Source of the DNA: Enterobacteriaceae endosymbiont of Donacia crassipes
Lineage (GTDB): Bacteria > Pseudomonadota > Gammaproteobacteria > Enterobacterales > Enterobacteriaceae
NCBI RefSeq assembly: GCF_012569785.1
Contig: NZ_CP046202.1
Location: 353,405-417,404 of the forward strand
Direction: 5' to 3'
DNA: 64,000 bases
In this document: positions 31,258 to 62,622 of the stretch, piece after piece
Layout: every line of letters starts with the position of its first letter
Position numbering within the stretch: position 1 is the first letter of the stretch
Notes under the pieces: generated by a model
The model's input: the letters and a program-made list of their open reading frames with translations, nothing else
Databases searched by the model: none
What the model was told of the DNA's origin: nothing
Position numbers and translations under genes: made by a program

Positions 31258-33714
31258 TTATAAAATTATATGCAATAAATCAGTTAATGCTCCTGCTGCA
31301 GTAACATTATTACCAGCTCCGTATCCTCTTAATACTAATGGATAAGGTTGATAATAATTAGTATAAAAAGCAAAAGAATTTTCTCCATTTTTGATATTAA
31401 AAAATGGATGATTATTATCAATTTGAATAATTTTTACTTTACATATACCTTTTTCATCAATACTTCCTACATAACGTAGAACTTTATTATTTTGTTTTGC
31501 ATATTCAATTTTTTTTATGTAAATTTGATTTATATCTGATAGAGAATTAAAAAAATCTTTCATAGAAAGATTATTGTTTAATTTATTAGGTATAACAGAT
31601 TCAATGATAATATCTTTTAATTCTATATTAAAACCAATTTCTCTAGCTAATATAAGTAATTTTCTTGCTACATCTATACCTGTAAGATCTATACGTGGAT
31701 CTGGTTCTGTAAAACCCATTTTTTGAGCCATTATTATAGATTCAGATAAAATAATTCCTTCTTCTAGTTTGCCAAAAATAAATGATAGCGAACCAGATAA
31801 AATTCCAATAAATTTATTAATTTTATTACCTGTTTGTAATAAATTTTTTAAAGTACTAATAACTGGTAATCCAGCACCAACATTTGTTTCATAATAAAAT
31901 TTTAAATTTAATTTACTTGCTGTTAAACGTATTTGATTATAGTATTCCATACTAGAGGAATTTGCTTTTTTATTAACAGCTATTATATTAAAACCATAGT
32001 TAAAAAAATTGATATATTGATCAGCAATTCTTTGTGAGGAAGTACAATCAATAATAACTGGATTAATTAATTTATATTTATCAATATGTTGTAATAAATA
32101 TTTAATCTGATTTTTATTAAAAGGATGATATTTAATTTTTTTTTGCCAATTTTTAATATTAATTCCATTAAAATCTATTAATGAATATTTTGTATTTAAA
32201 ATACTACAAATTTTTAAAATAATATTTTTTTTTTTAAAATAATTTATATTTTGATGAATTTGTTGTAATAAAGTACTTCCAATACCTCCAGTACCTATAA
32301 TAAAAATTTCTAATATTTTATTTTTATGAAATAAAATTTCATGTGTTATTTTTATAATATTTTTTGCATAGCATTCTTTTATAGCAACAGTAATATAATT
32401 TTGGAAAATATTTTGTGATATACCAAAAATATTGGTTTTTGTTATTTTAAATATTTTTAAAAAATTGGAAATTATATTTTTAGAATAATTAACTTGATTA
32501 ATAATTAAAGTAACTAATGATAATTTTTGAATAATTTTTATAGATTTAATTAAATTATATTTAAATTCTAAATGAAATTCTTCTTCTAACAAATTTTTTA
32601 AATTATTTAAATCTTTATCTAATAAAAATACATTAATATTACAATCTTCAGAAGATTGAGTTATAAAATAAATAGATATTTTAGATTGTAATATAAAAAA
32701 TAATATTTTTGATATAATATTATTTATGTATTTATTTTTATTACCAAAAATATTTAACATTGATATATTTTTTAATTTAGTAATACTTCTTATTTCAGGT
32801 AATAAATATTTAGTCATATCAAAATTTTTAATTAAAGTTCCATTAAATTTAGAATTCATTATATTTTTTATAACACAAGGTATGTTTGTTTTTAACATAG
32901 GTAATAATGTTTTATAATGGATTACCTTAGCACCAAAATATGATAAATTAATTGCTTCTTGATAATTAATAAATTTTAATAATTGTGCATTAGATATAAT
33001 ATTAGGATCTGCAGTATAAATACCATTAACATCAGTCCAAATTTCACAACAACTAGCTTTAAAACAAACAGCCAATACTGTAGCAGAATAATCTGAACCA
33101 TTTCTACCTAATAAAACAGTCTCCTTATTTTTATTAACAGCAGAAAATCCAGGCATTAATATTAAATCAATATTTGACAAATCAATTTTCTTAAGATTTT
33201 TAGAAGTTATAGAAATATCTACTGTTGATTCTAAATAATTACCATAAGCTAATAAGTATTTTTTAGGAGAAATAATATATATTTTGTATTTTTTTATATT
33301 TAATAAAGATTCTAATAAAAGTATAGAAAATTTTTCACCTTGCGATAAAATTTTTGCTTTAATTATATCCGGACAATAATTTATTAATTGAATACCTTGT
33401 AATAGATCTTCTATTCTAGATAATATCTTATTTATTTTATTATGTAAAATAATAATATCTATATTATTAACTTTTTTTTTTAAATCATTAATTAAATTAA
33501 TAAAAAAATCTTTTATATATATAAAAGATTTTTTACAATTTTTTTTTTCTAAATTTTTTTTTATTATTAATTCTAGACTATTAGTAATAGTTGCTGGAGC
33601 AGATAAAACAACAGCTATTTTTTCTTTTTTCAAATAATTATTAATTATATTTGTCACTAATAAAAATTTTTCTGCATTTTTTAATGAAGTTCCACCAAAT
33701 TTTAATACTTTCAT
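31258..33714 (-). CDS. thrA: aspartokinase I / homoserine dehydrogenase I
   Basis: Bifunctional enzyme for the first and third steps from aspartate to threonine. 818 residues (E. coli 820). The kinase part begins with KFGGTSL (5-11) and contains GRNGSDYSA. A central regulatory ACT region (about 310-450) is present but diverged. The dehydrogenase starts near 460 with IIGTGGIGSTL and keeps GILSGSLSFIFG and EPDPRIDLTGIDVARK. Both catalytic halves look intact. The E. coli thr leader peptide is not seen in the upstream 251 bp. Confidence 0.96.
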   Translation of the reverse strand: MKVLKFGGTSLKNAEKFLLVTNIINNYLKKEKIAVVLSAPATITNSLELIIKKNLEKKNCKKSFIYIKDFFINLINDLKKKVNNIDIIILHNKINKILSRIEDLLQGIQLINYCPDIIKAKILSQGEKFSILLLESLLNIKKYKIYIISPKKYLLAYGNYLESTVDISITSKNLKKIDLSNIDLILMPGFSAVNKNKETVLLGRNGSDYSATVLAVCFKASCCEIWTDVNGIYTADPNIISNAQLLKFINYQEAINLSYFGAKVIHYKTLLPMLKTNIPCVIKNIMNSKFNGTLIKNFDMTKYLLPEIRSITKLKNISMLNIFGNKNKYINNIISKILFFILQSKISIYFITQSSEDCNINVFLLDKDLNNLKNLLEEEFHLEFKYNLIKSIKIIQKLSLVTLIINQVNYSKNIISNFLKIFKITKTNIFGISQNIFQNYITVAIKECYAKNIIKITHEILFHKNKILEIFIIGTGGIGSTLLQQIHQNINYFKKKNIILKICSILNTKYSLIDFNGINIKNWQKKIKYHPFNKNQIKYLLQHIDKYKLINPVIIDCTSSQRIADQYINFFNYGFNIIAVNKKANSSSMEYYNQIRLTASKLNLKFYYETNVGAGLPVISTLKNLLQTGNKINKFIGILSGSLSFIFGKLEEGIILSESIIMAQKMGFTEPDPRIDLTGIDVARKLLILAREIGFNIELKDIIIESVIPNKLNNNLSMKDFFNSLSDINQIYIKKIEYAKQNNKVLRYVGSIDEKGICKVKIIQIDNNHPFFNIKNGENSFAFYTNYYQPYPLVLRGYGAGNNVTAAGALTDLLHIIL

Positions 33715-33965
33715 ATTATTAAACCTATATCAATTCATAAAATATAAAAATATAAATAATTAAATATTTATGGTTTTTATAAAATAAATATACATTAATA
33801 CAATTATTATTAATATTAAAATATTAAATTTATTTTATATAAATTATTAGTTAAAACTAATTTATATTTTAATGTATAGATTAATTATATTAATTATTTG
33901 TTTTTAAAATAAATAATTTTTTAAAAAAAATAAATTTACATGAAATTAAATATTAATAAATTATT

Positions 33966-36218
33966 TTAATAATTATTTTTGATAAAAATATCTTTAATAT
34001 TTTTTATATTTTTATAAAAAAAACCTTTTTTACCTTTTAATGAATAAAATTTTTTTATTTCTTCATAATTTAATATAAACTGTTCTTTATTAGTTTTTAT
34101 ATAAATCATAGAATTTTTATTAATACAAAATATCCATTTTAATTTATCTTTATTTTGGATAAAATCTTTTTTATTAATAAAAATTAATCTACTTCCTTTT
34201 CCTTTAGATAATTTAGGAATTTCATTAATTGAAAATAATAAAAATCTATTTAATAGAGATATAGTTAAAATTTTAGTATTTTTATTTTTAATGACTAAAG
34301 GTGATAATATTTCTGCATTTTTAGATAAAATCATAGATAATTTTCCATTTCTATTACATGCAATTAAATCATGAAATTTACATATAAAACCGTAACCTGA
34401 ACTAGAAGATAAAATAATTTCTTTATTAGAAGATTCCATTAATAAACTTTTAATTATAGATCCTTTAGAAATGTTTAATTTAGCATTTAAAGGTTCTCCT
34501 TGACTTCTTGCTGCAGGTAATGAATGTGTATCAATACTATAACTACGTCCAGTAGAATCTAAAACTACTATAGTTTGATTTTTTTTTCCTTTTACAGAAA
34601 GTAAAAATGAATCTCCAGATTTATAATTAAGGTTTAATGGATCTATAGTATGTCCTTTTGCACATCTAATCCATCCCATTTTAGACAAAATAATTGTTAT
34701 AGGTTCACTTAAAATTAATTCTGATTCATTTAATAATTTTGCTTCTTTTCTTTTTTTTAAAATTGAACGACGATCATCATTATAATAATTAGATAATAAT
34801 GATATTTCTTTTTTTAATAAAATATTAATTTTTTTTTCTGAAGATAATATTTGTATAATATTTTTATATTCTATTTCTAATTTTCTTTTTTTATTTTTTA
34901 AATTTTTTTCTTCTATAAATGAAATAGAACGTAATTTAAAATTAAGTAAAGTTTCTATTTGTAAATTAGTTAAATTAAATTGTTTTTGAAAAATAGGTTT
35001 AGGATCTATATTTAGACGAATAATTCTAATAAATTTTTCTAAATTTGAATATACAATTAGTAATCCTTCTATAATATGTAATTTTTGAATTATTTTTTCT
35101 AAATAAAAATGTAAACGTTTTTTTACTATTATTTTTCTAAATAAAATCCATTCTGATAATATTTCTATCAAGTTTTTTACAGCTGGTTTATTATTTAAAC
35201 CAATCATATTTAAATTAATACGATAACTTTTTTCTAAATCAGTAATAAAAAATAAATGCAACATAATTTGTTCAATTTTTAAATAATTAAAATTATTACG
35301 AATAAAAATAACTATTCGTGTAGGATTTTCATAATCAGATTCATCTCTAATATCCTCAATCATTGGTAATTTTTTATTTCTCATTTGTGTAGTAATTTGT
35401 TCAATAATACGTATTCCTGAAATTTGATAAGGTAATGATGTAATAATTATTGAATTATTTTTAATTTTCCATATTGCTCTCAATTTAATTGAACCTTTAC
35501 CTTTTTCATATATTTTATATATTTCATCTTTAGATGTTATAATTTCACTTCCTGTAGGAAAATCTGGACCTTGTATTGTATTTAAAAGTTCATTTAATGA
35601 AATTTGAGGATTATCAATAAGTTGAATTATTGCACTAGATATTTCTTTAATATTATGTGGAGGTATATCTGTTGCCATACCTACTGCTATTCCTGTTGAT
35701 CCATTTAAAATAATATTAGGTAAACATGCAGGTAATATTTTAGGTTCTAATAATGTACCATCAAAATTAGGAATAAGATCAACAGTACCTTTTTCTATTT
35801 CATTTAATAAAATATTAGAATATTTAGATAAACGAGATTCTGTATACCTCATTGCTGCAAATGATTTTGGATCATCTTGAGCTCCCCAATTACCTTGACC
35901 TTCTATTAATGGATATCTATAAGAAAAAGTTTGTGCCATTAAAACCATCGCTTCATAACATGCTATATCTCCATGAGGATGATATTTACCTATTACATCA
36001 CCAATAGTTCTAGCAGATTTTTTATATTTAGATGAAGATTTTAATCCTAATTCAGACATAGAATATATAATTCTTCTTTGAACTGGTTTTAATCCATCTC
36101 CAATATGTGGTAATGCTCTATCAGATATTACATAAATAGAATAATTTAAATATGCATTTTCTGCGAATTTATCTAATTGTATAGATTCTATTATATTTTT
36201 TTTTAATAATTTATTCAT
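33966..36218 (-). CDS. parC: topoisomerase IV subunit A
   Basis: DNA-cleaving subunit of topoisomerase IV, which decatenates sister chromosomes with ParE. 750 residues (E. coli ParC 752; much shorter than GyrA), and the sequence follows ParC throughout, including [15 protein letters not shown] and LSKGKGSRL in the C-terminal beta-propeller. The active tyrosine is Tyr125 in AAMRYTESR. In the quinolone-resistance region the residue matching E. coli Ser80 is Ile85 ([12 protein letters not shown]). It is divergent from aroF across about 200 bp. Confidence 0.96.
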
Positions 36219-36251
36219 TTGATATTTCCTAATAAAAATGTTTATATAAAA

Positions 36252-36295
36252 AATATTTTAATTATAAATAATATTTATAATATTTTAATTATAAA
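36252..36295. repeat. 17-bp direct repeat between parC and aroF
   Basis: AATATTTTAATTATAAA occurs twice, at 36252-36268 and 36279-36295, a period of 27 bases, in the divergent promoter region between parC and aroF. It may be a duplicated operator or just a local slippage duplication; it does not match the TyrR box of E. coli. Confidence 0.45.
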
Positions 36296-36415
36296 AAAAT
36301 TATTTTTATTTTTAATTTATATTTTAAAAAATTTAAATATGAATTTTATTGAATTTGATAGAATAAATATGTTATTTTTATGCAATAAAATTTTTATATA
36401 TATGGATATTTTATT

Positions 36416-37492
36416 ATGCAAAAAAATAATTTTGATAATAAAAATAATTTAATTACTCCAAAAGAATTAAAAAATAAATTACCAATATCTCAAGATATTA
36501 AAAATAATATATTAATATCACGTAAAATTATATCAAACATTATTAATGGCAAAGATTGTAGACTTTTAATTGTTTGTGGACCATGTTCTATACATAATAT
36601 TGAAGAAACTATAGAATATGGAAATTTATTAAAAAATTTATCTTTAAAATTAAAAAAAAATATATATTTTGTTATGCGAGTATATTTTGAAAAACCTAGA
36701 ACAATTTTAGGATGGAAAGGGTTAATTAATGATCCATACATGAATCAAACTTTTAATATAAATAAAGGATTATATTTAGCCCGTAAATTATTAATAAGAT
36801 TAGCTACAAAAAATATATTATTAGCAACTGAAATATTAAATCCTAATACATTTCAATATATAGATGATTTATTAAGTTGGGTGGCTATTGGAGCTCGTAC
36901 AGTAGAATCTCAAATTCATAGAGAAATAGCTTCTTTAATTAATATTCCTGTAGGATTTAAAAACAATACAAATGGTGATATTAATGCAGCTATTAATGCT
37001 ATCCAAGCATCAGCTATAGAACATCATTTTATTAGTTTAAATCAAAATGGAAAATCATATATAGTTAATACTATAGGAAATAAAAATTGTCATATTATCT
37101 TAAGAGGAGGTAAAAAACCTAATTATTACAAACATAATATAATAAAATGTGAAAAAATTTTATTAAATATCGGATTAAAATCTAAAATAATGATAGATTG
37201 TAATCATGGAAATTCTAATAAAGATTATAAAAAACAAATTTTAGTTATTAAATCAATAATTTCTCAAATTAAAGAAGGAAATATATCTATTATAGGAATA
37301 ATGATAGAAAGTTATATTAATCAAGGAAATCAAATTTTAAATCTTAAAAATAATAAAAAATTAAAATATGGAATTTCAATCACAGATGGATGTTTAGATT
37401 TTAAATCTACAGAAAAGATTTTATTACAAATAAATAATGAATTAGATTTAATACTTAAAACACGTTTTTTTAAAAAAAAAAATAATCATTAA
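36416..37492 (+). CDS. aroF: DAHP synthase (AroF type)
   Basis: First step of the shikimate pathway: phosphoenolpyruvate plus erythrose 4-phosphate to DAHP. 358 residues (E. coli AroF 356). Active-site residues are kept: VCGPCSIHN (metal cysteine), RVYFEKPRT, DCNHGNSNKDY (metal His), MIESYINQGNQ (metal Glu) and SITDGC (metal Asp). The AroF isozyme is assigned from the MQK start and from the position 18 bases before tyrA, as in the E. coli aroF-tyrA operon. No TyrR box is evident upstream. Confidence 0.92.
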   Translation: MQKNNFDNKNNLITPKELKNKLPISQDIKNNILISRKIISNIINGKDCRLLIVCGPCSIHNIEETIEYGNLLKNLSLKLKKNIYFVMRVYFEKPRTILGWKGLINDPYMNQTFNINKGLYLARKLLIRLATKNILLATEILNPNTFQYIDDLLSWVAIGARTVESQIHREIASLINIPVGFKNNTNGDINAAINAIQASAIEHHFISLNQNGKSYIVNTIGNKNCHIILRGGKKPNYYKHNIIKCEKILLNIGLKSKIMIDCNHGNSNKDYKKQILVIKSIISQIKEGNISIIGIMIESYINQGNQILNLKNNKKLKYGISITDGCLDFKSTEKILLQINNELDLILKTRFFKKKNNH

Positions 37493-37510
37493 ATATAAAT
37501 TTAAAATAAT

Positions 37511-38584
37511 ATGCTAAATAAAATAAATTTATTACGTAATCAAATTGATGCTTTAGACATACAATTATTAAATATTTTAAAAAAAAGATTAAATTTAGTA
37601 AAACAAATTGGATTAATAAAATATAAAAATGGATTACCTATTTGTTTCCCAGAAAGAGAAAAAAATATTATTAAATTAAGAAGACAAGAAGCAAAACAAA
37701 AAGGAATATCTCCTGATTTTATAGAAGATATATTATATCGTATAATTAGTGAATCATACCTTCATGAAAAAAATAAAATATTTAAAAATTTACAACCTAA
37801 TTTTCCTACAATACTTATTATTAGTAATAATAAAATAGGTTCTTTTTTTCAAAAAATGTTAATATTAACGGGATATAATATTAATTATATGGAAGAAAAA
37901 AATTTAAATATAAATAATATAGATTCCATATTTATGGATATAGGTATGATTATTATTGATGTATCTATTTCTTTTTTAAAAAAAATTATTAAAAAATTAT
38001 TAATTTTACCTAAAAATTGTATTTTAGTTGATTTATCTTCTACTAAACAAATTTCTTTTAAACTAATACTTAAAATATATAAAGGACCTGTTCTTGGTTT
38101 ATATCCATTATTTAATATAAAAAAGAATTTTTTTTTAAAAGAATCAATAATGTATTGTCATGGACATAATAAAAAACTTTATTTTTGGTTTTTAAAGCAA
38201 ATAAAAGTTTGGGGAATAACTATTTATAATATTGATGTTATAAAACATGATCAATATCTATTTTTTATAGAATCATTAAAATATTTTTTTGTATTTACAT
38301 ATATAACTTTATTATCTGAAAATAAAATCTCATTAAGTAAAATATCTATTTTATCACAACCTATACATGATTTAAATTTATTTATTTTAAAAAATTTTTT
38401 TATTTATGATATACAATTATATATAAATCTTATTTTAAAATTTAAAAATAATAAAGAAAAGATTAAAAAATATTTAATTTGTATAAATAACTTATTTTTT
38501 TTAATTAAAAATAATAAAATAAATAAAATAGAAAATATTTTTAAGAAAATACAAAATTTATTAAAAAATAATATTAAAAATTAG
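37511..38584 (+). CDS. tyrA: TyrA: intact chorismate mutase, degraded prephenate dehydrogenase
   Basis: In E. coli TyrA turns chorismate into prephenate and then oxidises it to 4-hydroxyphenylpyruvate. The 357-residue protein (E. coli 373) aligns end to end. The mutase domain (1-90) keeps Arg9, Arg26, Lys37 and Glu50 of PEREKN. The dehydrogenase domain is damaged: the NAD-binding glycine motif GGGGQMG is ISNNKIG (104-110), the catalytic histidine of GLHPMF is Tyr198 (GLYPLF), and the position of the prephenate-binding Arg294 is Asn295. So it probably works only as a chorismate mutase. A strong hairpin follows the stop. Confidence 0.9.
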   Translation: MLNKINLLRNQIDALDIQLLNILKKRLNLVKQIGLIKYKNGLPICFPEREKNIIKLRRQEAKQKGISPDFIEDILYRIISESYLHEKNKIFKNLQPNFPTILIISNNKIGSFFQKMLILTGYNINYMEEKNLNINNIDSIFMDIGMIIIDVSISFLKKIIKKLLILPKNCILVDLSSTKQISFKLILKIYKGPVLGLYPLFNIKKNFFLKESIMYCHGHNKKLYFWFLKQIKVWGITIYNIDVIKHDQYLFFIESLKYFFVFTYITLLSENKISLSKISILSQPIHDLNLFILKNFFIYDIQLYINLILKFKNNKEKIKKYLICINNLFFLIKNNKINKIENIFKKIQNLLKNNIKN

Positions 38585-38609
38585 ATTTTAAATTAATGAT
38601 AAAAATATT

Positions 38610-38643
38610 AAAAACTTAATATTAAAAAATATTAAGTTTTTTT
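38610..38643 (+). terminator. tyrA / bamD bidirectional terminator
   Basis: A perfect 14-bp stem, AAAAACTTAATATT (38610-38623) with AATATTAAGTTTTT (38628-38641) and loop AAAA, is followed by more T. It lies between the convergent tyrA and bamD stops, so it can serve both strands. Confidence 0.65.
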
Positions 38644-38652
38644 ATTATAGTA

Positions 38653-39378
38653 TTAAAAATTGTTAAGTTTTAATTTATTTAAAGAATTATTTAAAATTTT
38701 TTTTATTATATTAGTATTAATATCATTATACGGACTATTTTTTAAAAAAATTAAACATCTATTAATTGTTGATATATATTTTTTTTTTTGATAAAGAAAT
38801 TTAATAATATTTAAATCAAAATTTTTAATACGTTGGTTCATGTGAATTAATTTTTTTTTTAAAAAAGGAATATAAATACTATTTGGATATTTTTTAAAAA
38901 ATATTTTTGTATCATTAATAGCCAACTGAGTATAAAATGGATTACAATTTTTTCGATTAATTTTAAATAAATTTTGTATTTTACTATTTGTATCTAAAGA
39001 TATCTCTGTTATTATTTTAATATAAAAAATATAACTCATAAATGCAGAATGATCATATAATTGTATAAATTCATCTATTAATTCTAAAACAATCAAAAAA
39101 TTATGTTCTAAATAATTTAAATAAATTAAAGAAATTAAAATTTTTTCAGTATATATATTATTTGGATAATTAATATATAAATTATTAAATTTTAATAAAG
39201 CTTGATCATATTTTTTTTCAGATAATAATTTTATAGCATTTATATATTCTTCTTTTAAAGGAATATCAAAATATCTTTGCTCATATGTATATTTATCATA
39301 TTTACAATTAACTGTAATTAATAATATTAATATTAATATATTAATTAAAACTATTTTTTTATTTATAAAATTTTTCAT
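38653..39378 (-). CDS. bamD: outer membrane assembly lipoprotein BamD
   Basis: Essential lipoprotein of the Bam complex, which inserts beta-barrels in the outer membrane. 241 residues (E. coli 245). It starts with a hydrophobic signal and a lipobox-like TVNC (Cys25), followed by TPR-type helices. The segment FKINRKNCNPFYTQLA and KKYPNSIY align with the matching E. coli region (FGVDRSDRDP, RGYPNSQY). The neighbour is rluD, divergent, as in E. coli. Sequence divergence is high, but length, signal, key segments and synteny agree. Confidence 0.88.
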   Translation of the reverse strand: MKNFINKKIVLINILILILLITVNCKYDKYTYEQRYFDIPLKEEYINAIKLLSEKKYDQALLKFNNLYINYPNNIYTEKILISLIYLNYLEHNFLIVLELIDEFIQLYDHSAFMSYIFYIKIITEISLDTNSKIQNLFKINRKNCNPFYTQLAINDTKIFFKKYPNSIYIPFLKKKLIHMNQRIKNFDLNIIKFLYQKKKYISTINRCLIFLKNSPYNDINTNIIKKILNNSLNKLKLNNF

Positions 39379-39441
39379 TTTTTTAAATTTATTATAATAT
39401 TATATATTAAATATAATCTATAATTTATAAATCTTAAATAA

Positions 39442-40388
39442 ATGAAAAATATTAATTTAACTTTTAAAGTTAATCTTTTATATAATAAAAAAAGATTAGA
39501 TTTTTTCCTTAAAGAAAAAATATTACAATGTTCTAGAACACAAATAAAAAAATTAATACTTTGTAATAAAGTTCAAATTAATTATAAAATTATTAATATA
39601 CCTAAAAAAAAATTTTTTTAGGAGACATAATTAAAATTAATACTTTTATTTTAAATAAAAAAATAATATGGAAAGCACAAAATATACCATTAGATATAAT
39701 TTATGAAGATCGATATATTTTAGTTATTAATAAAAAATCTAATATTGTAGTACATCCTGGTAATAAAAATATAGATAATACTATATTTAATTCAATAATA
39801 TATTATTATCCACATGCAAGAGATATACCTAGAGCAGGTATTGTACATAGATTAGATAAAAATACTACTGGATTGATGATAATAGCAAAAAATATTTATT
39901 CTTATTTTTTTTTAAAACAAGAATTAAAAAAACATAATATAATTAGAAATTATGAAGCTATTGTTAATGGGATTATTAAAAATAATAATATTATAGATTA
40001 CCCAATAAAACGTATATATAAAAAAAATAATATTTGCATGAATGTACATCCATTAGGTAAATCAGCAATAACAAAAATTTTTATAAAAAATATTTTTCAA
40101 AATCATACTCATTTAAAAGTTCAATTAAAAACAGGTAGAACTCATCAAATTAGAGTTCATTTATCATATATTAAACATAGTATTGTTGGTGATCAGATTT
40201 ATAAAAATTATATTAACAATATTAAATTTTATGAAAAAAAAATTAGTAAAATAATTAAAAGACAAGCTTTACATGCACGTTGTATTAAATTTATACACCC
40301 ATTCTATAATATATTAATAAAATTAAATACAATTTTACCAAATGATATAAATAATTTGATTAATTTTTTAAAAAATGTTAATATATAA
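39442..40388 (+). pseudogene. rluD: RluD 23S rRNA pseudouridine synthase with a -1 frameshift in a homopolymer
   Basis: RluD makes pseudouridines 1911, 1915 and 1917 in helix 69 of 23S rRNA. Reading from 39442 gives the S4-like domain (RLDFFLKEKI ... KLILCNKVQINY) and stops at TAG 39619-39621, straight after a run of nine A and seven T (39604-39619). One base more in that run would join it to the second frame, which reads LGDIIKINTF, then INKKSNIVVHPG, the catalytic HRLDKNTTGL and KTGRTHQIRVHLSY to 40388. Everything else is intact, so this may be a gene rescued by polymerase slippage, a recent pseudogene, or a sequencing error. Synteny with bamD is as in E. coli. Confidence 0.85.
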
Positions 40389-41251: not shown

Positions 41252-42115
41252 ATGAAAAAAAAAATAATTTTAATAGATGGAACATTTTGTTTATACCGTG
41301 CATATTATGCTTTACCTAATTTAATTAATAGTAAAGGATATCCTACTGGTGCAGTATATGGTTTTATTAATATTTTTAATAAAATTGTAAACATGAATAT
41401 TAATAGTTATTTTTTAATTATATTTGATACTAAAGGAGAATCTTTTAGAAAAAAGATTTTTAGTAAATATAAATTAACTAGAGTTAATATGCCGAATAAT
41501 TTAGTTATACAAATTAAACCTTTGTATAAAATTATACAGGCTATGGGATATAATATTATATCTATAAAAAATACAGAAGCTGATGATATTATTGGTACTT
41601 TATCAATATATGCAGAAAAAAAAAATTATTTAATTTTTATTTTTAGTTTAGATAAAGATATATCTCAATTAGTTACAAAAAATATTAAAATAATAAATCC
41701 AATTAATTACTCTATTTCTGGACCACAAGAAATATATAATAAATATGGAGTATACCCAAAATTTATTAGTGATTTCTTAGCATTAAGTGGAGATTCTATA
41801 GATAATATTCCTGGGGTCCCAGGAATAGGGGCTAAAACAAGTCAAAAATTAATTAATAAACTAGGAAATTTAAAAAATATTTATCATAATATAAAAAAAA
41901 TTAATAATATTAGTTTTAGAGGAGGAGAAAATATAAAAAAAAAATTAATAAAATATAAAAAATTAGTATTTTTATATCATAAATTAACAACGATTAAAAC
42001 TAACATTATTCTTGATCAAGAATATTTAAATTTTAAAACTAAAATTAAACCAAAAAAAAATTATTTAAAATATTTATTTAAATTGTATGAATTTAATAAA
42101 TTAATTAATAAATAA
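41252..42115 (+). CDS. polA: DNA polymerase I reduced to its 5'-3' nuclease domain
   Basis: 287 residues matching only the N-terminal 5' nuclease of E. coli Pol I (928 aa). It removes RNA primers and flaps. The metal-binding acidic residues are kept: LIDGTFCLYRAYYA, NTEADDIIGTL, SLDKDISQL, and the helix-hairpin-helix LSGDSIDNIPGVPGIGAKT. The 3'-5' exonuclease and polymerase domains are missing, and the 250 bp that follow hold no remnant I can recognise. Buchnera is known to keep the same short form. The place between dsbA and typA identifies it as polA rather than xni. Confidence 0.92.
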   Translation: MKKKIILIDGTFCLYRAYYALPNLINSKGYPTGAVYGFINIFNKIVNMNINSYFLIIFDTKGESFRKKIFSKYKLTRVNMPNNLVIQIKPLYKIIQAMGYNIISIKNTEADDIIGTLSIYAEKKNYLIFIFSLDKDISQLVTKNIKIINPINYSISGPQEIYNKYGVYPKFISDFLALSGDSIDNIPGVPGIGAKTSQKLINKLGNLKNIYHNIKKINNISFRGGENIKKKLIKYKKLVFLYHKLTTIKTNIILDQEYLNFKTKIKPKKNYLKYLFKLYEFNKLINK

Positions 42116-45235: not shown

Positions 45236-45982
45236 ATGAAAAATAATATAGAAAAAAAAAAAAATGACAACACTGTTAATAATACAGAATTAGATAAAAA
45301 TGACAACACTGTTAATAATACAGAATTAGATAAAAATGACAACACTGTTAATAATACAGAATTAGATAAAAATGATAACACTGTTAATAATACAGAATTA
45401 GATAAAAATGATATAAATAATAGTTTATCTATTAATAAACATAAAAAAAAATATACAATTGAATATTTTAAAGAAAAAAATGACATATTAAAAATAAAAA
45501 TTCTTGAATTACAAAATAAAATTAAAAAGATAAGACAAAAAATATTGGATTTAAAATTATATTCCCAATCTGAAATAGAAAATATGAGACGTAGATCAAT
45601 TTTAGATATAGAAAATGCTTATAAATTTTCTTTAGAAAAATTTATTTATGAATTATTACCTGTTATAGATAATTTAGAAAGATCTTTAGATTTAAAAATA
45701 CATAAAGAAGAAAATTCTTTAAAAGTTTCTATAATAGAAGGTATTAAATTAACTTTGCAATTATTAATAATATTAATTAAAAAATTTGGTGTAACAATTA
45801 TAAATGAAATTAATGTACCTTTTAATCCATCTAAACATCAAGCAATGTCAATAGTTGAATCAGATAAAATAAAAGAAAATTATATAATAAAAATTTTACA
45901 AAAAGGATATTTTCTTCATAAAAGATTATTAAGACCTGCAATGGTTATTGTATCTAAAATAAAAGAAAATATAAATAATTAA
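45236..45982 (+). CDS. grpE: nucleotide exchange factor GrpE with an expanded N-terminus
   Basis: Releases ADP from the chaperone DnaK. 248 residues against 197 in E. coli. The difference is an N-terminal low-complexity region made of four copies of the 12-residue unit NDNTVNNTELDK (residues 10-57). After it come the coiled coil (about 75-120, LKIKILELQNKIKKIRQKI), the segment SEIENMRRRS, the four-helix part LPVIDNLERSLD, and the beta-wing PFNPSKHQAMSIVESD ending in LLRPAMVIVSK. So the functional part is complete. A 13-A run lies at the beginning of the frame. Confidence 0.95.
   Translation: MKNNIEKKKNDNTVNNTELDKNDNTVNNTELDKNDNTVNNTELDKNDNTVNNTELDKNDINNSLSINKHKKKYTIEYFKEKNDILKIKILELQNKIKKIRQKILDLKLYSQSEIENMRRRSILDIENAYKFSLEKFIYELLPVIDNLERSLDLKIHKEENSLKVSIIEGIKLTLQLLIILIKKFGVTIINEINVPFNPSKHQAMSIVESDKIKENYIIKILQKGYFLHKRLLRPAMVIVSKIKENINN
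45263..45406 (+). repeat. 36-bp tandem repeat, four copies, in grpE
   Basis: Four adjacent 36-bp units start at 45263, 45299, 45335 and 45371. The first three look identical; the fourth differs by one silent C-to-T change in the second codon (GAC to GAT). A fifth copy is begun by AATGAT at 45407 and then diverges. The unit length is a multiple of three and the frame is open through all copies. Confidence 0.95.
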
Positions 45983-46873: not shown

Positions 46874-48979
46874 ATGAAAATTATTAAAGTTGTAATTAAT
46901 AATTCTATTATAAATAATAAATTTGATTATTTATTACCAAAAAATACTATTATTTCAATTGGATGTAGAGTTTTAATATCGATTAAAAAAAAAAATTATA
47001 TAGGTATAGTAATAAAAATTACTTCTTCTTCTAAAAAACCTATAGATAAATTAAAATTTATATCTAAAGTTTTAGATAAAAAATCACTTTTTAATTCTTT
47101 AATATTAGATTTTGCAAAAAAAATTTCTCAATATTATCAATATCCTATTGGAAGCATCTTATTTCAAATATTACCTATTTTTTTTAGAAAAAAAAATAAT
47201 TCTTTAGAAGAATTATCAGATACTTTAAAAGTAAAAAAAAATAATTTTCTAAATAATATTAAAGTTATAAATTATTATAATTTTAAAAAAATTAATTTTA
47301 CATTTCATAACAAAAAATGTACTTGTTTATATAAAAATCAATTTAATTCTATTCAAAAAAAAAAAAATAATAGTTTTTATAAAGAAAATATACAAAACAT
47401 ACTAAAAAATTTTGAAGAAAAATATCACAAAAATAAATTTTTTGTTTGGATTACACAAAATAATATTATTTTTTTAGAAAAAATTAATATATATTTAAAT
47501 ATTATTAAAAAAGTTTTATTACAAAAAAAACAAATACTAATAATAGTTCCTCAATATTATTTTTTTTTTCAATTATATGAATATTTTTTATCTAAATTAG
47601 ATATACATATCTGTTTATTATATTCAAATTTTACCAATAAAAAAACATTGCCAATATGGGAAAATATTAAAAACGGGATAATATCTATTATTATAGGTAC
47701 TAAATTTTCTATTTTTACACAGTTTTTACAATTAGGATTAATAATCCTAACAGAAGAACATAACTTTATATATAGAAAAACAAATATATATAAATATAAT
47801 ACACGAAATATAGCTATTTTAAGAGCTAAAACAGAAAATATTCCTATAATATTAAGTTCTAATACATTAAATATAGAAACAATATACAATATAAATATTG
47901 GTAAATATAAATTTTTATTTAAAAATAATACAACAATTTTATATAAAAATTTTTTTAAATTTTTGATAATAGATAAAAATAAAAAAACATTTAGATCTCA
48001 ATTATTTTCTAATATTTTAATACAAATGATATTAAAATGTATTAAAAATAATGAACAAATTATTATTTATAATAAATATATTGGATATTCAATTAATATT
48101 TTATGTAATTTTTGTCAAAAAATTTTAAAATGTATAGATTGTAATAGTAATTTAATTTTTTATAAAAAACTTTGGAAATTATATTGTTATTGTTGTAAAA
48201 AAACTATTAATATGTTTACTATGTGTCCATTTTGTAAAAAAAATTTTTTTATACCGATAGGTATCGGTACAGAACAATTAATTGAATTATTAAATAATGT
48301 TTTTCCAAATATATTAATTTTAAATATTAATAATAATAATTTTTTTAAAAAAATTTTACTTATTGATAATAAAAAACCATTAATAATTATTTCATCTCAA
48401 ATTTTATATAAAGAATATTTTTCTATTTTAAAAAATAGTTTAATTATATTTTTTAATATAGATGATATTTTATTTTCTAAAAATTTTAAAGCTACAGAAT
48501 ATTTTATACAGTATATTTTTAATATATTAAATAATCATTTAGATAAAAAAAAAAAAACGGTTATTATTCAAACATATTATCCACAAAATAAAATATTTTT
48601 AAAAATTTTTAAAGAATATAAAAATTATTATGATATAACTAATTTTCTTTTAAAAGAAAGAAAATTAATGTTATTACCTCCTTTTACTAAGCATATTTCT
48701 ATAGTTTTTGAATCTAAAAATAAAAAAATTTTATTAAATTTTTTAAATATTTTTAAAAAAAAAGTACAAAAAAAATATATAAATGAAAAAAATTTTATTA
48801 TTATTGGACCTTTATCATTAAAACAATGTAAAAGAAAAGGTTTTTTTAGAAAACAATTAATTTTACAACATTTTTCAAAAAAACAATTACAGTTAATTAT
48901 AAAATATATTTTTTCTATTATAAAAAAAATTGTATTTTTTAATAAAATTAAATTTATTATTAATGTTGATCCGATTTAA
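46874..48979 (+). CDS. priA: primosomal protein PriA with lost helicase motifs
   Basis: PriA restarts stalled replication forks by binding branched DNA, unwinding it and loading the primosome. 701 residues (E. coli 732). The DNA-binding N-terminus (FDYLLP, GCRVLI, PIGSILFQILPI) and all four zinc CxxC pairs (Cys411/414, 420/423, 438/441, 451/454) are kept, as is the C-terminal GPLSLKQCKRKGFFRKQLILQH. The ATPase is lost: Walker A (GVTGSGKTE in E. coli) reads ITQNNIIFL (193-201), DEEH is TEEH (293-296), GTQMLAKGH is SSQILYKEY, and QVAGRAGR is replaced. The frame is open, so it may act as a structural loader only. Confidence 0.9.
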   Translation: MKIIKVVINNSIINNKFDYLLPKNTIISIGCRVLISIKKKNYIGIVIKITSSSKKPIDKLKFISKVLDKKSLFNSLILDFAKKISQYYQYPIGSILFQILPIFFRKKNNSLEELSDTLKVKKNNFLNNIKVINYYNFKKINFTFHNKKCTCLYKNQFNSIQKKKNNSFYKENIQNILKNFEEKYHKNKFFVWITQNNIIFLEKINIYLNIIKKVLLQKKQILIIVPQYYFFFQLYEYFLSKLDIHICLLYSNFTNKKTLPIWENIKNGIISIIIGTKFSIFTQFLQLGLIILTEEHNFIYRKTNIYKYNTRNIAILRAKTENIPIILSSNTLNIETIYNINIGKYKFLFKNNTTILYKNFFKFLIIDKNKKTFRSQLFSNILIQMILKCIKNNEQIIIYNKYIGYSINILCNFCQKILKCIDCNSNLIFYKKLWKLYCYCCKKTINMFTMCPFCKKNFFIPIGIGTEQLIELLNNVFPNILILNINNNNFFKKILLIDNKKPLIIISSQILYKEYFSILKNSLIIFFNIDDILFSKNFKATEYFIQYIFNILNNHLDKKKKTVIIQTYYPQNKIFLKIFKEYKNYYDITNFLLKERKLMLLPPFTKHISIVFESKNKKILLNFLNIFKKKVQKKYINEKNFIIIGPLSLKQCKRKGFFRKQLILQHFSKKQLQLIIKYIFSIIKKIVFFNKIKFIINVDPI

Positions 48980-49032: not shown

Positions 49033-50910
49033 ATGTGTGATTTTAATAAATTTGATGTAATAGTAATAGGTGGTGGACATGCAGGTACTGAAGCTGCTTT
49101 AGCTAGTGCTAAAATGAAAAAAAAAACTCTTTTAATTACAAATAATATAGATACAATTGGACAAATGTCTTGTAATCCAGCAATAGGAGGTGTTGGTAAA
49201 AGTCATTTAGTAAAAGAAATAGATGCATTAAATGGTATTATGGCTACTGCAATTGATTATTCCGGTATTAATTTTAAAATACTTAATTATAGTAAAGGTC
49301 CAGCTGTTAGATCTACAAGAGTACAAATAGACAGAGAATTATATAAAAATCAAATAAAATATTTATTACAAAAAGAAAAAAATTTGTTTATTTTTCAACA
49401 AGAAGTAAAAAAAATTATAATTAAAAATTATAAAATAACCGGCATTATAACTATGAATAATGATATTATTAATGCAAGAGTTGTAATTTTAACTACTGGT
49501 ACTTTTTTAAATGGAAAAATTTATATTGGATTAAATAATCAATATATAGGAGGAAGAATTAATGATATTTCATCTATTCATTTAGCTAGTTTTTTAAATG
49601 AATTACCAATTAATAAAGGAAGATTAAAAACAGGAACACCTCCTCGTCTTGATAAAAGAAGTATTAATTTCTCTGAATTAGAAATACAAAATAGTGATAA
49701 TCCTTTGCCATTTTTTTCTTATATTGGAAATGCAAAACAACATCCTAAACAATTACCTTGTTATATTACATATACTAATAAAAATACACATCAAATTATA
49801 TTAGATAATATAATTAAAAGTCCTATATATAGTGGCTTAATAAAAGCTAAAGGACCTAGATATTGTCCATCTATTGAAGATAAAATTATTAGATTTTCAA
49901 ATAAAGAAAAACATCAAATTTTTTTAGAACCAGAAGGTATTATTAATCATGAAATATATCCTAATGGAATTTCTACTAGTTTGCCATTTAAAATACAATT
50001 TTTAATTATAAAATCAATTAAAGGTTTAGAAAATGCATATATTACTAGACCAGGATATGCTGTAGAATATGATTTTTATGATCCTAGAGGGTTGAAACTT
50101 ACAATGGAAAGTAAATTTATAAAAAGATTATTTTTTGCAGGACAAATTAATGGAACTACTGGTTATGAAGAAGCTGCAGCACAAGGATTAATAGCTGGAT
50201 TAAATGCTTCTCTTTTAATAGATGATAAAAAACAATGGTATCCATTAAGAAATCAGGCATATATAGGAGTTTTATTAGATGATTTATGTACATTAGGTAC
50301 AAAAGAACCATATCGTATGTTTACATCAAGAGCAGAATATAGATTATTATTAAGAGAAAATAATGCTGATATAAGATTAACAGAAATAGGACGTAAATTA
50401 GGTTTAGTAGATGATTTTCGTTGGAAGAAATTTAATGAAAAATTAGAAAATATTGAACAAGAATATCAAAAAATTAAAAATTTTTCTATTAATTTTAATG
50501 ATAAACAAAAATTGAAAAAATTTAAATATTTATTAAAAACATCTAATATAAAAAATATTAATGGTATTAATTTATTAAAACGTTCTGAAATATCTTATAA
50601 AGATTTAATAAAATTAAATATATTATCTTTTGATAAAAATAAAACAGAAATTTTTGAATATATTGAAACACAATTAAAATATCAAGGATATATTAAAAGA
50701 CAAGAAGAACATATAAAAAAACAAAAAAAAAATGAAAATATATTTATACCTATAAATATTAAATTTAATAATATTAAAAGTTTATCTCATGAAGCAATAG
50801 ATAAATTTAATCATTATAAACCTTATACTCTTGGACAAGCTTCAAGAATACCTGGAATAACACCAGCAGATATTTCAATACTTATGATTTATTTGTTAAA
50901 GAATAAGTAA
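49033..50910 (+). CDS. mnmG: tRNA uridine-5-carboxymethylaminomethyl synthase MnmG
   Basis: With MnmE it puts the carboxymethylaminomethyl group on U34 of several tRNAs. 625 residues (E. coli 629). FAD-binding [10 protein letters not shown] (13-22), the [20 protein letters not shown] segment, [11 protein letters not shown] and the C-terminal [20 protein letters not shown] are all kept. The thiolation partner pathway would use IscS. In E. coli it lies next to oriC; here the upstream neighbour is priA, and no DnaA-box cluster is seen. Confidence 0.96.
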
Positions 50911-60777: not shown

Positions 60778-62622
60778 TTATATGTGATTAATGATTTTGT
60801 TTTTAATATTAGAAAATCTTTTAATTTGAGATTTTATTGCTTTATAAAAAATAATTTTATTACTGTAGATAGTAATTTTTTTTTTAGCTCTTGTAATAGC
60901 AGTATAAATTAATTCTCTAGTTAATACAGAATAAAATTTATTTGGTAATACTAATGCAATATTTTGAAATTCTGATCCTTGTGATTTATGAGCTGTTATT
61001 GCATATGCTATTTCATATGACGGTAAGTTTTCAATGCATATAATTTTTTGTTCCCCATTAAATAAAAAAAACTTAATTTTTAATTTTTGATCTTTTTTAT
61101 CTAAAAAAGTAATGCCAATATCTCCATTAAATAAATTTAAATAGCTATCATTTTTGGTAATAATTATAGGTTTTCCTACATACCAATTGTGTTTCTGAGA
61201 ACTAATGTTTATTATATTATTACTTAATAATTCTTTTTCAATGATAGAATTAATTTTTTTTGTACCAAACAATCCATATTTTATAGCACATATAATTTGA
61301 TAATTATTAAATTTATACAAAATATTTATATCATATTTTTTATATTTTTGTAAATAAATAAAATATTTCTTATATTCTTCAATAAAAAAAGATATCATTA
61401 ATTTATATTTATTTATATTTAACATATTAAAATATTCGATATCATTATATTTTTTTAATAAAAAAATTCTTTCAATTTTTTTTTGATTACCATTCTTAAT
61501 ATTTAAAGCTAATTTATTAATACCAGAATTTATTGCATATCTATAATTATATTTTAAAACAGTAATAAAATTACGAAAAAAAAATTTTTGTATATTTTTA
61601 TTTTCATATTGATATTTAATTATAGAATTTAACCATAAAAAATACTTTTTTGTAAAACAAAATTTTTTAAAATAACATAAATCTTTAAATAAATTTCCAT
61701 ATTCTATAGAAGGCAATTGATATTCATCTCCTAATAAAATTAATTTAGTTTTTTTAGGTAAAATATTTAAAATAATAGACATTAAATTAAAATCAATCAT
61801 CGATGATTCATCGATAATTAACAAATCTATATTAAGTTGATTTAAATCATTAAATTTAATTTCTTTAGTATAAATTTCCATTTTTAATAAATGATGTATA
61901 GTAGTTGCTTTTTTAGGAATATTTGCTCTTTTTTTTTTATCTATTATTTTATCAGAAAAATTTTTAAAAAAATGATTAATAGATTGTGTTAATCTAACTG
62001 CAGCTTTACCAGTAGTAGCTACAATTTTTATTTTTAAATTTGTATTAAAAATTTTTATAAATGCAAAAATTATTTTTGATATTATACTAGTTTTTCCTGT
62101 ACCAGGAGATCCAGTAATTATACTAATTTTATGAGTTAATGCTGAACAAATAGCTTCTTGTTGTATAACATCTGTTTTATTACATAATAATTTCAAAATT
62201 TTTTTTATTTTTTTTGGTTCTATAAAAGAAAAATTATTATTAAGAAAATTTTTTACTATTATATTTTCTTCATACCACATTTTATGTAAATACAAATAAT
62301 TATTTATTAAAATAATAGGAGTATTTTTTTCTCCATTACTAACAATATCTTTATAAGAAGATAAAATTTCTTTCCAATTTTTAATTTTATTAATTTCTTT
62401 TATTTTTTTTAATAAAAAACTATTTTTATTATTTTTAATATTTATATCTAAATATAATTTAGATATGGGCAAACAAATATTACCTTTGCCAATATAATTG
62501 CTAAGTAAAGCAATAGCAAACATTAATAAATCTTTTTTTTTATTTGTTAGTATAGATGCTAAATATAAATCAATTAAACGAATAATTTTAATTTTACATA
62601 ATTTTTTTAAAAATAAATACAT
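60778..62622 (-). CDS. recD: exodeoxyribonuclease V subunit alpha (RecD)
   Basis: 5'-3' helicase of the RecBCD double-strand-break repair enzyme. 614 residues (E. coli 608). Helicase motifs are intact: ITGSPGTGKTS (Walker A at 171-178), LLIIDESSMID (Walker B), LLGDEYQLPS, and AYAITAHKSQGSEF with YTAITRAKKKI near the C-terminus. The N-terminal 100 residues and the middle are diverged. It lies 32 bases after recB, the E. coli order. Confidence 0.94.
   Translation of the reverse strand: MYLFLKKLCKIKIIRLIDLYLASILTNKKKDLLMFAIALLSNYIGKGNICLPISKLYLDINIKNNKNSFLLKKIKEINKIKNWKEILSSYKDIVSNGEKNTPIILINNYLYLHKMWYEENIIVKNFLNNNFSFIEPKKIKKILKLLCNKTDVIQQEAICSALTHKISIITGSPGTGKTSIISKIIFAFIKIFNTNLKIKIVATTGKAAVRLTQSINHFFKNFSDKIIDKKKRANIPKKATTIHHLLKMEIYTKEIKFNDLNQLNIDLLIIDESSMIDFNLMSIILNILPKKTKLILLGDEYQLPSIEYGNLFKDLCYFKKFCFTKKYFLWLNSIIKYQYENKNIQKFFFRNFITVLKYNYRYAINSGINKLALNIKNGNQKKIERIFLLKKYNDIEYFNMLNINKYKLMISFFIEEYKKYFIYLQKYKKYDINILYKFNNYQIICAIKYGLFGTKKINSIIEKELLSNNIINISSQKHNWYVGKPIIITKNDSYLNLFNGDIGITFLDKKDQKLKIKFFLFNGEQKIICIENLPSYEIAYAITAHKSQGSEFQNIALVLPNKFYSVLTRELIYTAITRAKKKITIYSNKIIFYKAIKSQIKRFSNIKNKIINHI

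Follow-up and report, generated by a model that had tools for sequence, protein, structure and literature searches.

A priA gene in the chromosome of a reed beetle symbiont

The stretch of DNA analysed here (the window) comprises 64,000 nucleotides from the symbiont of the reed beetle Donacia crassipes, whose genome totals 464,968 bp, of which the chromosome makes up 458,439 bp; these sizes equal those tabulated for it by Reis et al. 2020 (458,439 + 6,529 bp; Table 1, PMC7289800). On the plus strand, positions 46874..48979 hold a priA gene of 701 codons plus stop, whose frame is open throughout, as a preliminary description of the window had stated, and whose motor is dead by sequence. The frame scored 268.1 bits against the curated model TIGR00595 (cut-off 230.35), matched NF004065 (residues 1-701, 407.5 bits) and other PriA models more strongly but under their own cut-offs, and carried the Pfam 3' DNA-binding domain (3'BD) and PriA_C domains both above theirs. 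It has the features of the family, namely the match to a curated model, the 3'BD, an eight-cysteine zinc region, the C-terminal domain and the overall fold, and its product is a true PriA (primosomal protein N').

The protein opens with the 3'BD (residues 1-105, 46874..47188, PF17764 at 74.3 bits), followed by a little conserved and mostly unmodelled linker or winged-helix region (106-188, 47189..47437). Helicase lobe 1 (189-376, 47438..48001) is kept as a domain in the structural model and is predicted to be catalytically dead; alignment places in it the former Walker A segment NIIFLEKIN (197-205, 47462..47488) and the former Walker B segment TEEHN (293-297, 47750..47764). The zinc region (411-454, 48104..48235) precedes the second part of helicase lobe 2 (462-600, 48257..48673), which contains the former motif V, SSQILYKEY (507-515, 48392..48418), and the former motif VI, now NILNNHLD (550-557, 48521..48544), and the C-terminal domain (601-701, 48674..48976, PF18074 at 43 bits) closes the protein. 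Downstream on the same strand lies a frame that reads by eye as mnmG (49033..50910), the first part of which served as the control for selection. The window also holds the end of RecB and, on the minus strand, recD (60778..62622; so named in the preliminary description and by eye), which shows GSPGTGKT and IDES and so has intact helicase motifs, as had been claimed for it.

The genus set consisted of 24 genomes (G000-G023, GC 19.6-23.3%), that is, 24 of the 26 in Table 1 of PMC7289800, the symbionts of D. versicolorea and D. semicuprea being the two table genomes outside it. When the window protein was used as query against 99 genomes, PriA matches were obtained in 92, including all 24 of the genus, whose frames are all open over 676-744 codons from stop to stop and whose identity to the window protein goes down to 44%. 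The seven genomes with no PriA match in this search were six small ones (G029, G030, G033, G041, G044 and G082) and a 4-Mb draft (G076).

Loss of the motor motifs and retention of the zinc cysteines

We aligned the 24 genus PriA with 26 PriA from outside the genus, among them an E. coli-like row (L038). The signatures SGKT (Walker A), DEE (Walker B) and GR[AS]GR were all missing in 24/24 genus proteins, while 22 of the 26 outside the genus kept all three; among the other four, L025 departs only by GRTGR, and L027, L031 and L032 are degenerate. Compared with L038, the window protein reads NIIFLEKIN for GITGSGKTE in motif I, VPQYYFFFQ for VPEIGLTPQ in motif Ia, TEEHN for DEEHD in motif II, SSNTL for GSATP in motif III, IYNKYIG for LFLNRRG in motif IV, SSQILYKEY for GTQMLAKGH in motif V and NILNNHLD for QVSGRAGR in motif VI, the last of which has become a fairly constant ILNNHL-like stretch in the genus (mean column entropy 0.67; GR[AS]GR in 0/24). 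None of the 24 proteins has the intact Walker A, Walker B, motif V and motif VI of an active SF2 helicase. The motif loss is thus confirmed as real and genus-wide, and because the state is common to 24 genomes, assembly error does not explain it.

The preliminary description had rightly reported, for the window genome, the loss of the first Walker B acid (TEEH) and, as the alignment bears out, the disappearance of GTQMLAKGH and QVAGRAGR. Its replaced, glycine-free Walker A also holds, but had been placed four residues off (193-201, aligned at 197-205) and is not lysine-free, since K203 occupies the aligned place of the Walker lysine. This lysine, together with the largely kept EEH of Walker B (22, 24 and 22 of 24), would be what is left to an active ATPase with unorthodox motifs. 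Against such an enzyme, the place of K203 holds Lys in 13/24 genus genomes and another residue in 11/24, lysine being common in the AT-rich priA; none of the 24 keeps any of the three P-loop glycines (and Thr is replaced by Ile in 22/24), the G507 and H515 positions of motif V are altered in 24/24, and Asn stands in the place of R584 (E. coli numbering) in 24/24. We consider an active ATPase very unlikely, and ATP-driven unwinding has probably been lost.

The first Walker B acid is present in only 2/24 proteins, those of the Donacia symbionts G018 (L013) and G008 (L015), where it is followed by K or Q and where N stands for H, unlike in their relatives.

All eight zinc cysteines (411, 414, 420, 423, 438, 441, 451 and 454), already seen in the window protein by the preliminary description, are kept in 24/24. 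Residues invariant in a reference that left out the degenerate L027, L031 and L032 and also L050 were then counted; L049 and L050 are motif-intact, with incomplete starts in the extracted frames. In the 3'BD, nine of 17 reference-invariant residues are kept in 24/24 and one is lost in all, and in the zinc region seven of the ten non-cysteine invariants are lost in all 24. Within what we take to be the SSB-tail pocket (Tyr87, Lys371, Trp83 and Gln702), Tyr87 and Lys371 are kept in 24/24, Gln702 in 13, and Trp83 is lost in 24/24.

Purifying selection on PriA

Selection was estimated under GY+F3X4 on a fixed 24-taxon tree, with grid values of omega and kappa fixed at 4. Grid omega was 0.13 for the 3'BD, 0.09 for lobe 1, 0.07 for the zinc region (411-461), 0.13 for the second part of lobe 2, 0.20 for the C-terminal domain and 0.25 for the linker, and it was 0.13 both for the whole motor and for the pooled 3'BD, zinc and C-terminal parts (the scaffold); the mnmG part took 0.03, the bottom of the grid. 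Neutrality (omega = 1) was rejected throughout, both in the eight PriA partitions (2dlnL 55 to 1072, kappa fixed) and in the mnmG part. Where the program converged, fitted omega was 0.143 for the 3'BD, 0.095 for lobe 1, 0.122 for the motor, 0.141 for the scaffold and 0.042 for mnmG. Among ten close pairs, motor omega was 0.085-0.155 in eight and undefined in two, and scaffold omega was 0.128-0.260 in six and undefined in four. Since motor omega is like that of the scaffold, the lobes decay no faster than the rest of PriA; omega in PriA exceeds that in mnmG by a factor of three to four, which means weaker constraint than on this housekeeping enzyme.

Such weaker constraint, the fast evolution of the linker and the lack of a PriA match in G029, G030, G033, G041 and G044, five small relatives from the family that can therefore dispense with PriA, would suit a pseudogene in slow decay that lost its motor first, with the rest to follow. 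This history is highly improbable given the rejection of omega = 1 in all eight partitions, frames that are open in every one of 24 genomes of such low GC, and the eight cysteines kept in each of them; PriA is under purifying selection and is no decaying pseudogene.

What has changed is the distribution of constraint within the protein. With 21 motif-intact PriA as reference (L027, L031, L032, L049 and L050 left out), the ratio of amino-acid tree lengths, motor to scaffold, was 0.52 in the reference vs 1.02 in the genus. Near-invariant reference columns were kept in the genus at 26% in the catalytic motifs (50 columns), 55% in the other motor columns (87) and 66% in the scaffold (53), with P = 4e-5 for motif vs non-motif and P = 0.06 for non-motif vs scaffold, values that serve as a guide because columns are not independent. 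Column entropy in the motifs vs the other motor columns was 0.18 vs 1.06 in the reference and 1.10 vs 1.09 in the genus. Catalytic constraint is gone and structural constraint is left in the motor lobes, and the relaxation is motor-specific and well short of neutrality.

The preliminary description had PriA kept as a scaffold and its motor dropped. Its core stands, in that catalytic signatures are gone in 24/24, many reference-invariant residues persist in the DNA-binding, zinc-ligand and C-terminal parts and selection is purifying, but the motor has not been dropped as a structure: its RecA-like lobes are as constrained as the scaffold (0.13 vs 0.13) and are modelled as a PriA fold. The same description had named equal relaxation across the gene as the mark of a simple pseudogene; omega is far below 1 in every tested partition, and the shift (0.52 to 1.02) is specific to the motor.

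Predicted structure

The AlphaFold2 model of the window PriA (pLDDT 80.8, pTM 0.83) is confident in the 3'BD, the zinc region and the C-terminal domain and mostly so in the lobes, but not at residues 112-165 (pLDDT < 50). Its nine best PDB matches by Foldseek were PriA chains, the best being fork-bound E. coli PriA (8fak; TM 0.91 by target, 0.83 by query), from which it differed by an rmsd of 3.4, compared with 8.0 to 12.9 for the other PriA chains. We rejected the fork-bound conformation as a special property of the symbiont protein: a motif-intact control, Samsonia PriA, predicted with the same 27 rows, also fitted 8fak best (TM 0.94 by target, rmsd 2.9), this structure being fifth by E-value and first by TM-score and rmsd. 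The better fit to the fork-bound form thus appears to be a tendency of the prediction.

Degenerate PriA in other symbionts

Degenerate PriA was also found in Candidatus Lightella neohaematopini (L171), G028 (L031) and G053 (L032), and partly in G038 (L027), where SGKT is kept and GRAGR is lost. Like the genus, Candidatus Lightella neohaematopini and G028 combine a putatively motor-dead PriA with zinc cysteines; the two proteins are 75% identical with a pair omega of about 0.2, and the replacement residues of L031 (NIRDNDKTK, DDEHS) differ from those of the genus. DnaB, RecA and DciA are present in G028, and DnaA was not detected there. To our knowledge, actinobacterial PriA of the PRK14873 type is without helicase motifs, and the window PriA gave weak NCBIfam matches to this type.

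Independent, repeated motor loss in several symbionts was considered and rejected, as all degenerate PriA form one clade with the genus, with support of 98 under LG+F+G4 (30 sequences, including 9/24 genus members) and of 95 with recoded amino acids and 94 without 62 motif columns (24 sequences each). This clade may reflect shared ancestry or long-branch attraction, and we do not claim independent origins.

In the 0.6-Mb relative G053, the motor-dead frame L032 spans 627 codons and is without the 3'BD. The 0.35-Mb genome G056 (L033) gave no DnaA match and keeps its helicase motifs, so that small genome size alone does not explain motif loss.

Replication and restart partners

DnaB was above cut-off and RecA was present in 24/24 genus genomes. 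With E. coli queries, DnaC was found in 0/24 at E 10 or less, under a search that matched the 0.5-Mb symbiont G033 at 1.1e-95; DnaT was likewise found in 0/24 at E 10 or less, a weak search that gave matches in 10/60 genomes (of 1e-70 or better in only four) and missed many free-living relatives. PriC was found in 0/24 at E 10 or less, again by a weak search (matches in 20/60 genomes, many free-living relatives missed). As to PriB, looked for at its operon place only, no frame lies between rpsF and rpsR in 13/13 genus genomes inspected (13/24), the gap being below 95 bases. Besides RecB-size frames, each genome has one full-size match of the Rep/UvrD type (in two pieces in G003), and the window-genome copy fits UvrD best (NF008743 835 bits vs TIGR01074 rep 572, all below cut-offs); Rep was not detected, a statement that takes its family fit from the window-genome copy alone. 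The genes priB, dnaT and rep, which the preliminary description had singled out in the rest of the genome, were thus missing from the operon place where inspected, found in 0/24 and not detected, respectively. PriA and DnaB were the only members of the E. coli loading set detected in the genus, and neither the DnaC and DnaT of the E. coli preprimosome (0/24 each) nor the E. coli Rep/PriC route to restart was recovered.

A different loader is present. DciA gave a Pfam match in 21/24 genomes at E 10 or less, always on the minus strand between 141 and 161 kb and mostly sub-threshold, G019 alone reaching the curated cut-off; in G008, G018 and G017 it was found by direct comparison, bringing the total to 24/24. 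The window-genome DciA scored 16.9 bits against a cut-off of 24 but, in a small set, matched a free-living DciA at 2.4e-18, and in this genome and in G017 it adjoins a frame that reads by eye as secA. Both parts of DciA-type helicase loading, DciA and DnaB, therefore occur in the genome. The preliminary description had made its scaffold depend on DnaB/DnaC loading partners; half of that pair, DnaC, went undetected, while DnaB is present together with DciA.

A PriA that probably marks DNA for helicase loading

The reading that we favour, and hold to be probable, is that symbiont PriA is a selected pseudohelicase which binds branched DNA and marks forks for DciA and DnaB. Having lost unwinding, the protein would be kept by selection as a folded binder of branched DNA; its targets would most likely be D-loops and forks arising from recombination (RecA, RecBCD), recognised through the 3'BD, the lobes and the zinc region. 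PriA would then mark where DciA loads DnaB on the lagging strand, its link to DnaB being either direct contact, which is reported for the Deinococcus protein, or contact by way of DciA. The lack of ATPase, fork binding, contact with DnaB or DciA and the link to recombination are properties that we infer for the symbiont protein.

We favour this pseudohelicase because of the Deinococcus precedent and because joint action of DciA and PriA has been suggested as possible in Caulobacter (PMC9825169). D. radiodurans PriA is reported to have no measurable ATPase and 4% unwinding at 10 nM, to bind forks about twofold more weakly than E. coli PriA (108.5 vs 52.1 nM) and to contact DnaB on a native gel (PMC4504706); the values given in that paper for fork binding by three PriAs lie at 52-134 nM. 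Like D. radiodurans PriA, the symbiont protein, known from sequence alone, has degenerate Walker A and B and is kept outside the motor, and the Deinococcus-Thermus control genomes Thermus composti and Deinobacterium chartae have DciA, as the symbionts do. Unlike it, symbiont PriA has every motif rewritten, whereas in Deinococcus the Walker A lysine is described as Arg within GKT; the two control genomes also match DnaA, and the reed-beetle symbionts do not. In E. coli, DnaB is put on forks via PriA, PriB and DnaT with DnaC (PMC13377028), and the K230R protein (priA300) is an ATPase- and helicase-deficient PriA, of the kind predicted here, in a viable cell (PMC9713433, PMC4504706); priA300, unlike the symbiont genes, is a single laboratory change leaning on PriB, and its combination with a priB deletion causes severe defects (PMC9713433). 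Because PriC, DnaT, DnaC and Rep were undetected and PriB is not at its operon place where inspected, the proposed loading route has its one precedent in Deinococcus.

The same gaps among the tested E. coli partners would fit a PriA freed from restart altogether, with another role on branched DNA, such as protecting or blocking D-loops, and without DnaB loading. The retention of DnaB and DciA and the reported contact of Deinococcus PriA with DnaB (PMC4504706) argue against such a release, which we regard as unlikely. As to the cause of motor loss, selection as a suppressor of a supposed loss of RecG is compatible with the pseudohelicase reading, and helicase-dead PriA is reported to relieve the over-replication of E. 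coli recG cells (PMC2764109, PMC4631800). We regard this cause as quite unlikely. RecG, SpoT, Gmk, RnhA and DnaQ had no match within 164 kb of the 458-kb chromosome of the window genome, which is uninformative on the rest.

If the pseudohelicase reading is right, the two jobs of PriA have been separated by nature and kept so across a symbiont genus as far as its radiation was sampled, and PriA, DciA and DnaB would form a very small helicase-loading set for asking how DnaB loads away from oriC. The system would also allow one to ask whether recombination- or transcription-primed replication can sustain a chromosome when PriA does not unwind. A search of open-access literature recovered the Deinococcus paper, and none of the titles and opening lines of abstracts that it returned dealt with a motor-dead symbiont PriA. 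Two published papers on reed-beetle symbionts make no mention of priA in the main text.

Possible replication without DnaA

DnaA was found in 0/24 genus genomes at E 0.001, a search that matched the 0.5-Mb relative G033 at 1.8e-163, and loss of DnaA is known in other insect symbionts (PMC4389277). With DnaA undetected in 24/24, we recognised no recruiter of the replicative helicase other than PriA. Motor-dead PriA might then itself start chromosome replication by marking D-loops or R-loops at which DciA puts DnaB, in which case the chromosome would always be copied by a helicase-less version of the 'stable DNA replication' of E. coli. We hold this extension to be doubtful. In its favour, DnaA-free replication in E. 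coli dnaA rnhA tus rpo* is reported to depend on DnaB loading by PriA, and helicase-dead PriA still allows these cells to grow on minimal medium (PMC4631800). Against it, helicase-dead PriA is reported to much reduce DnaA-free growth on LB and to abolish the DnaA-free synthesis of recG cells, and K230D PriA to reduce DnaA-free synthesis relative to wild type (PMC4631800, PMC2764109); moreover, G029, G030 and G082 have neither a DnaA nor a PriA match.

A strict link between motor loss and DnaA loss was rejected, as G056, with no DnaA match, keeps its motifs and DnaA is present in G038, whose motor is partly dead. In G052 and G053, DnaA matches were sub-threshold only.

Further observations in the window and genome

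Several features elsewhere in the window and genome were recorded in their own right. By eye, a 287-residue frame (41252-42115) resembles DNA polymerase I in its 5'-3' exonuclease part only. Within the window, cumulative G-C reaches its minimum near 36 kb, with a change of skew sign there (about 32000-40000), and ten 10-kb samples together with the window hint at a second skew change at 90-120 kb of the chromosome, with which the 200-kb sample disagrees; since the weak skew closely tracks gene strand, the minimum may be no origin.

In a frame of the window genome that reads by eye as 2-oxoglutarate dehydrogenase E1-like (L226:6207-9065), a masked run lies between two copies of a short stretch, which is perhaps an assembly duplication. 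Finally, a 36-base unit is repeated 4.7 times with 95% matches at 45242-45411, inside a frame that is GrpE-like by eye (45236-45982), where it encodes a repeated N-terminus (NDNTVNNTELDK) and is accompanied by a 92-codon frame on the other strand.
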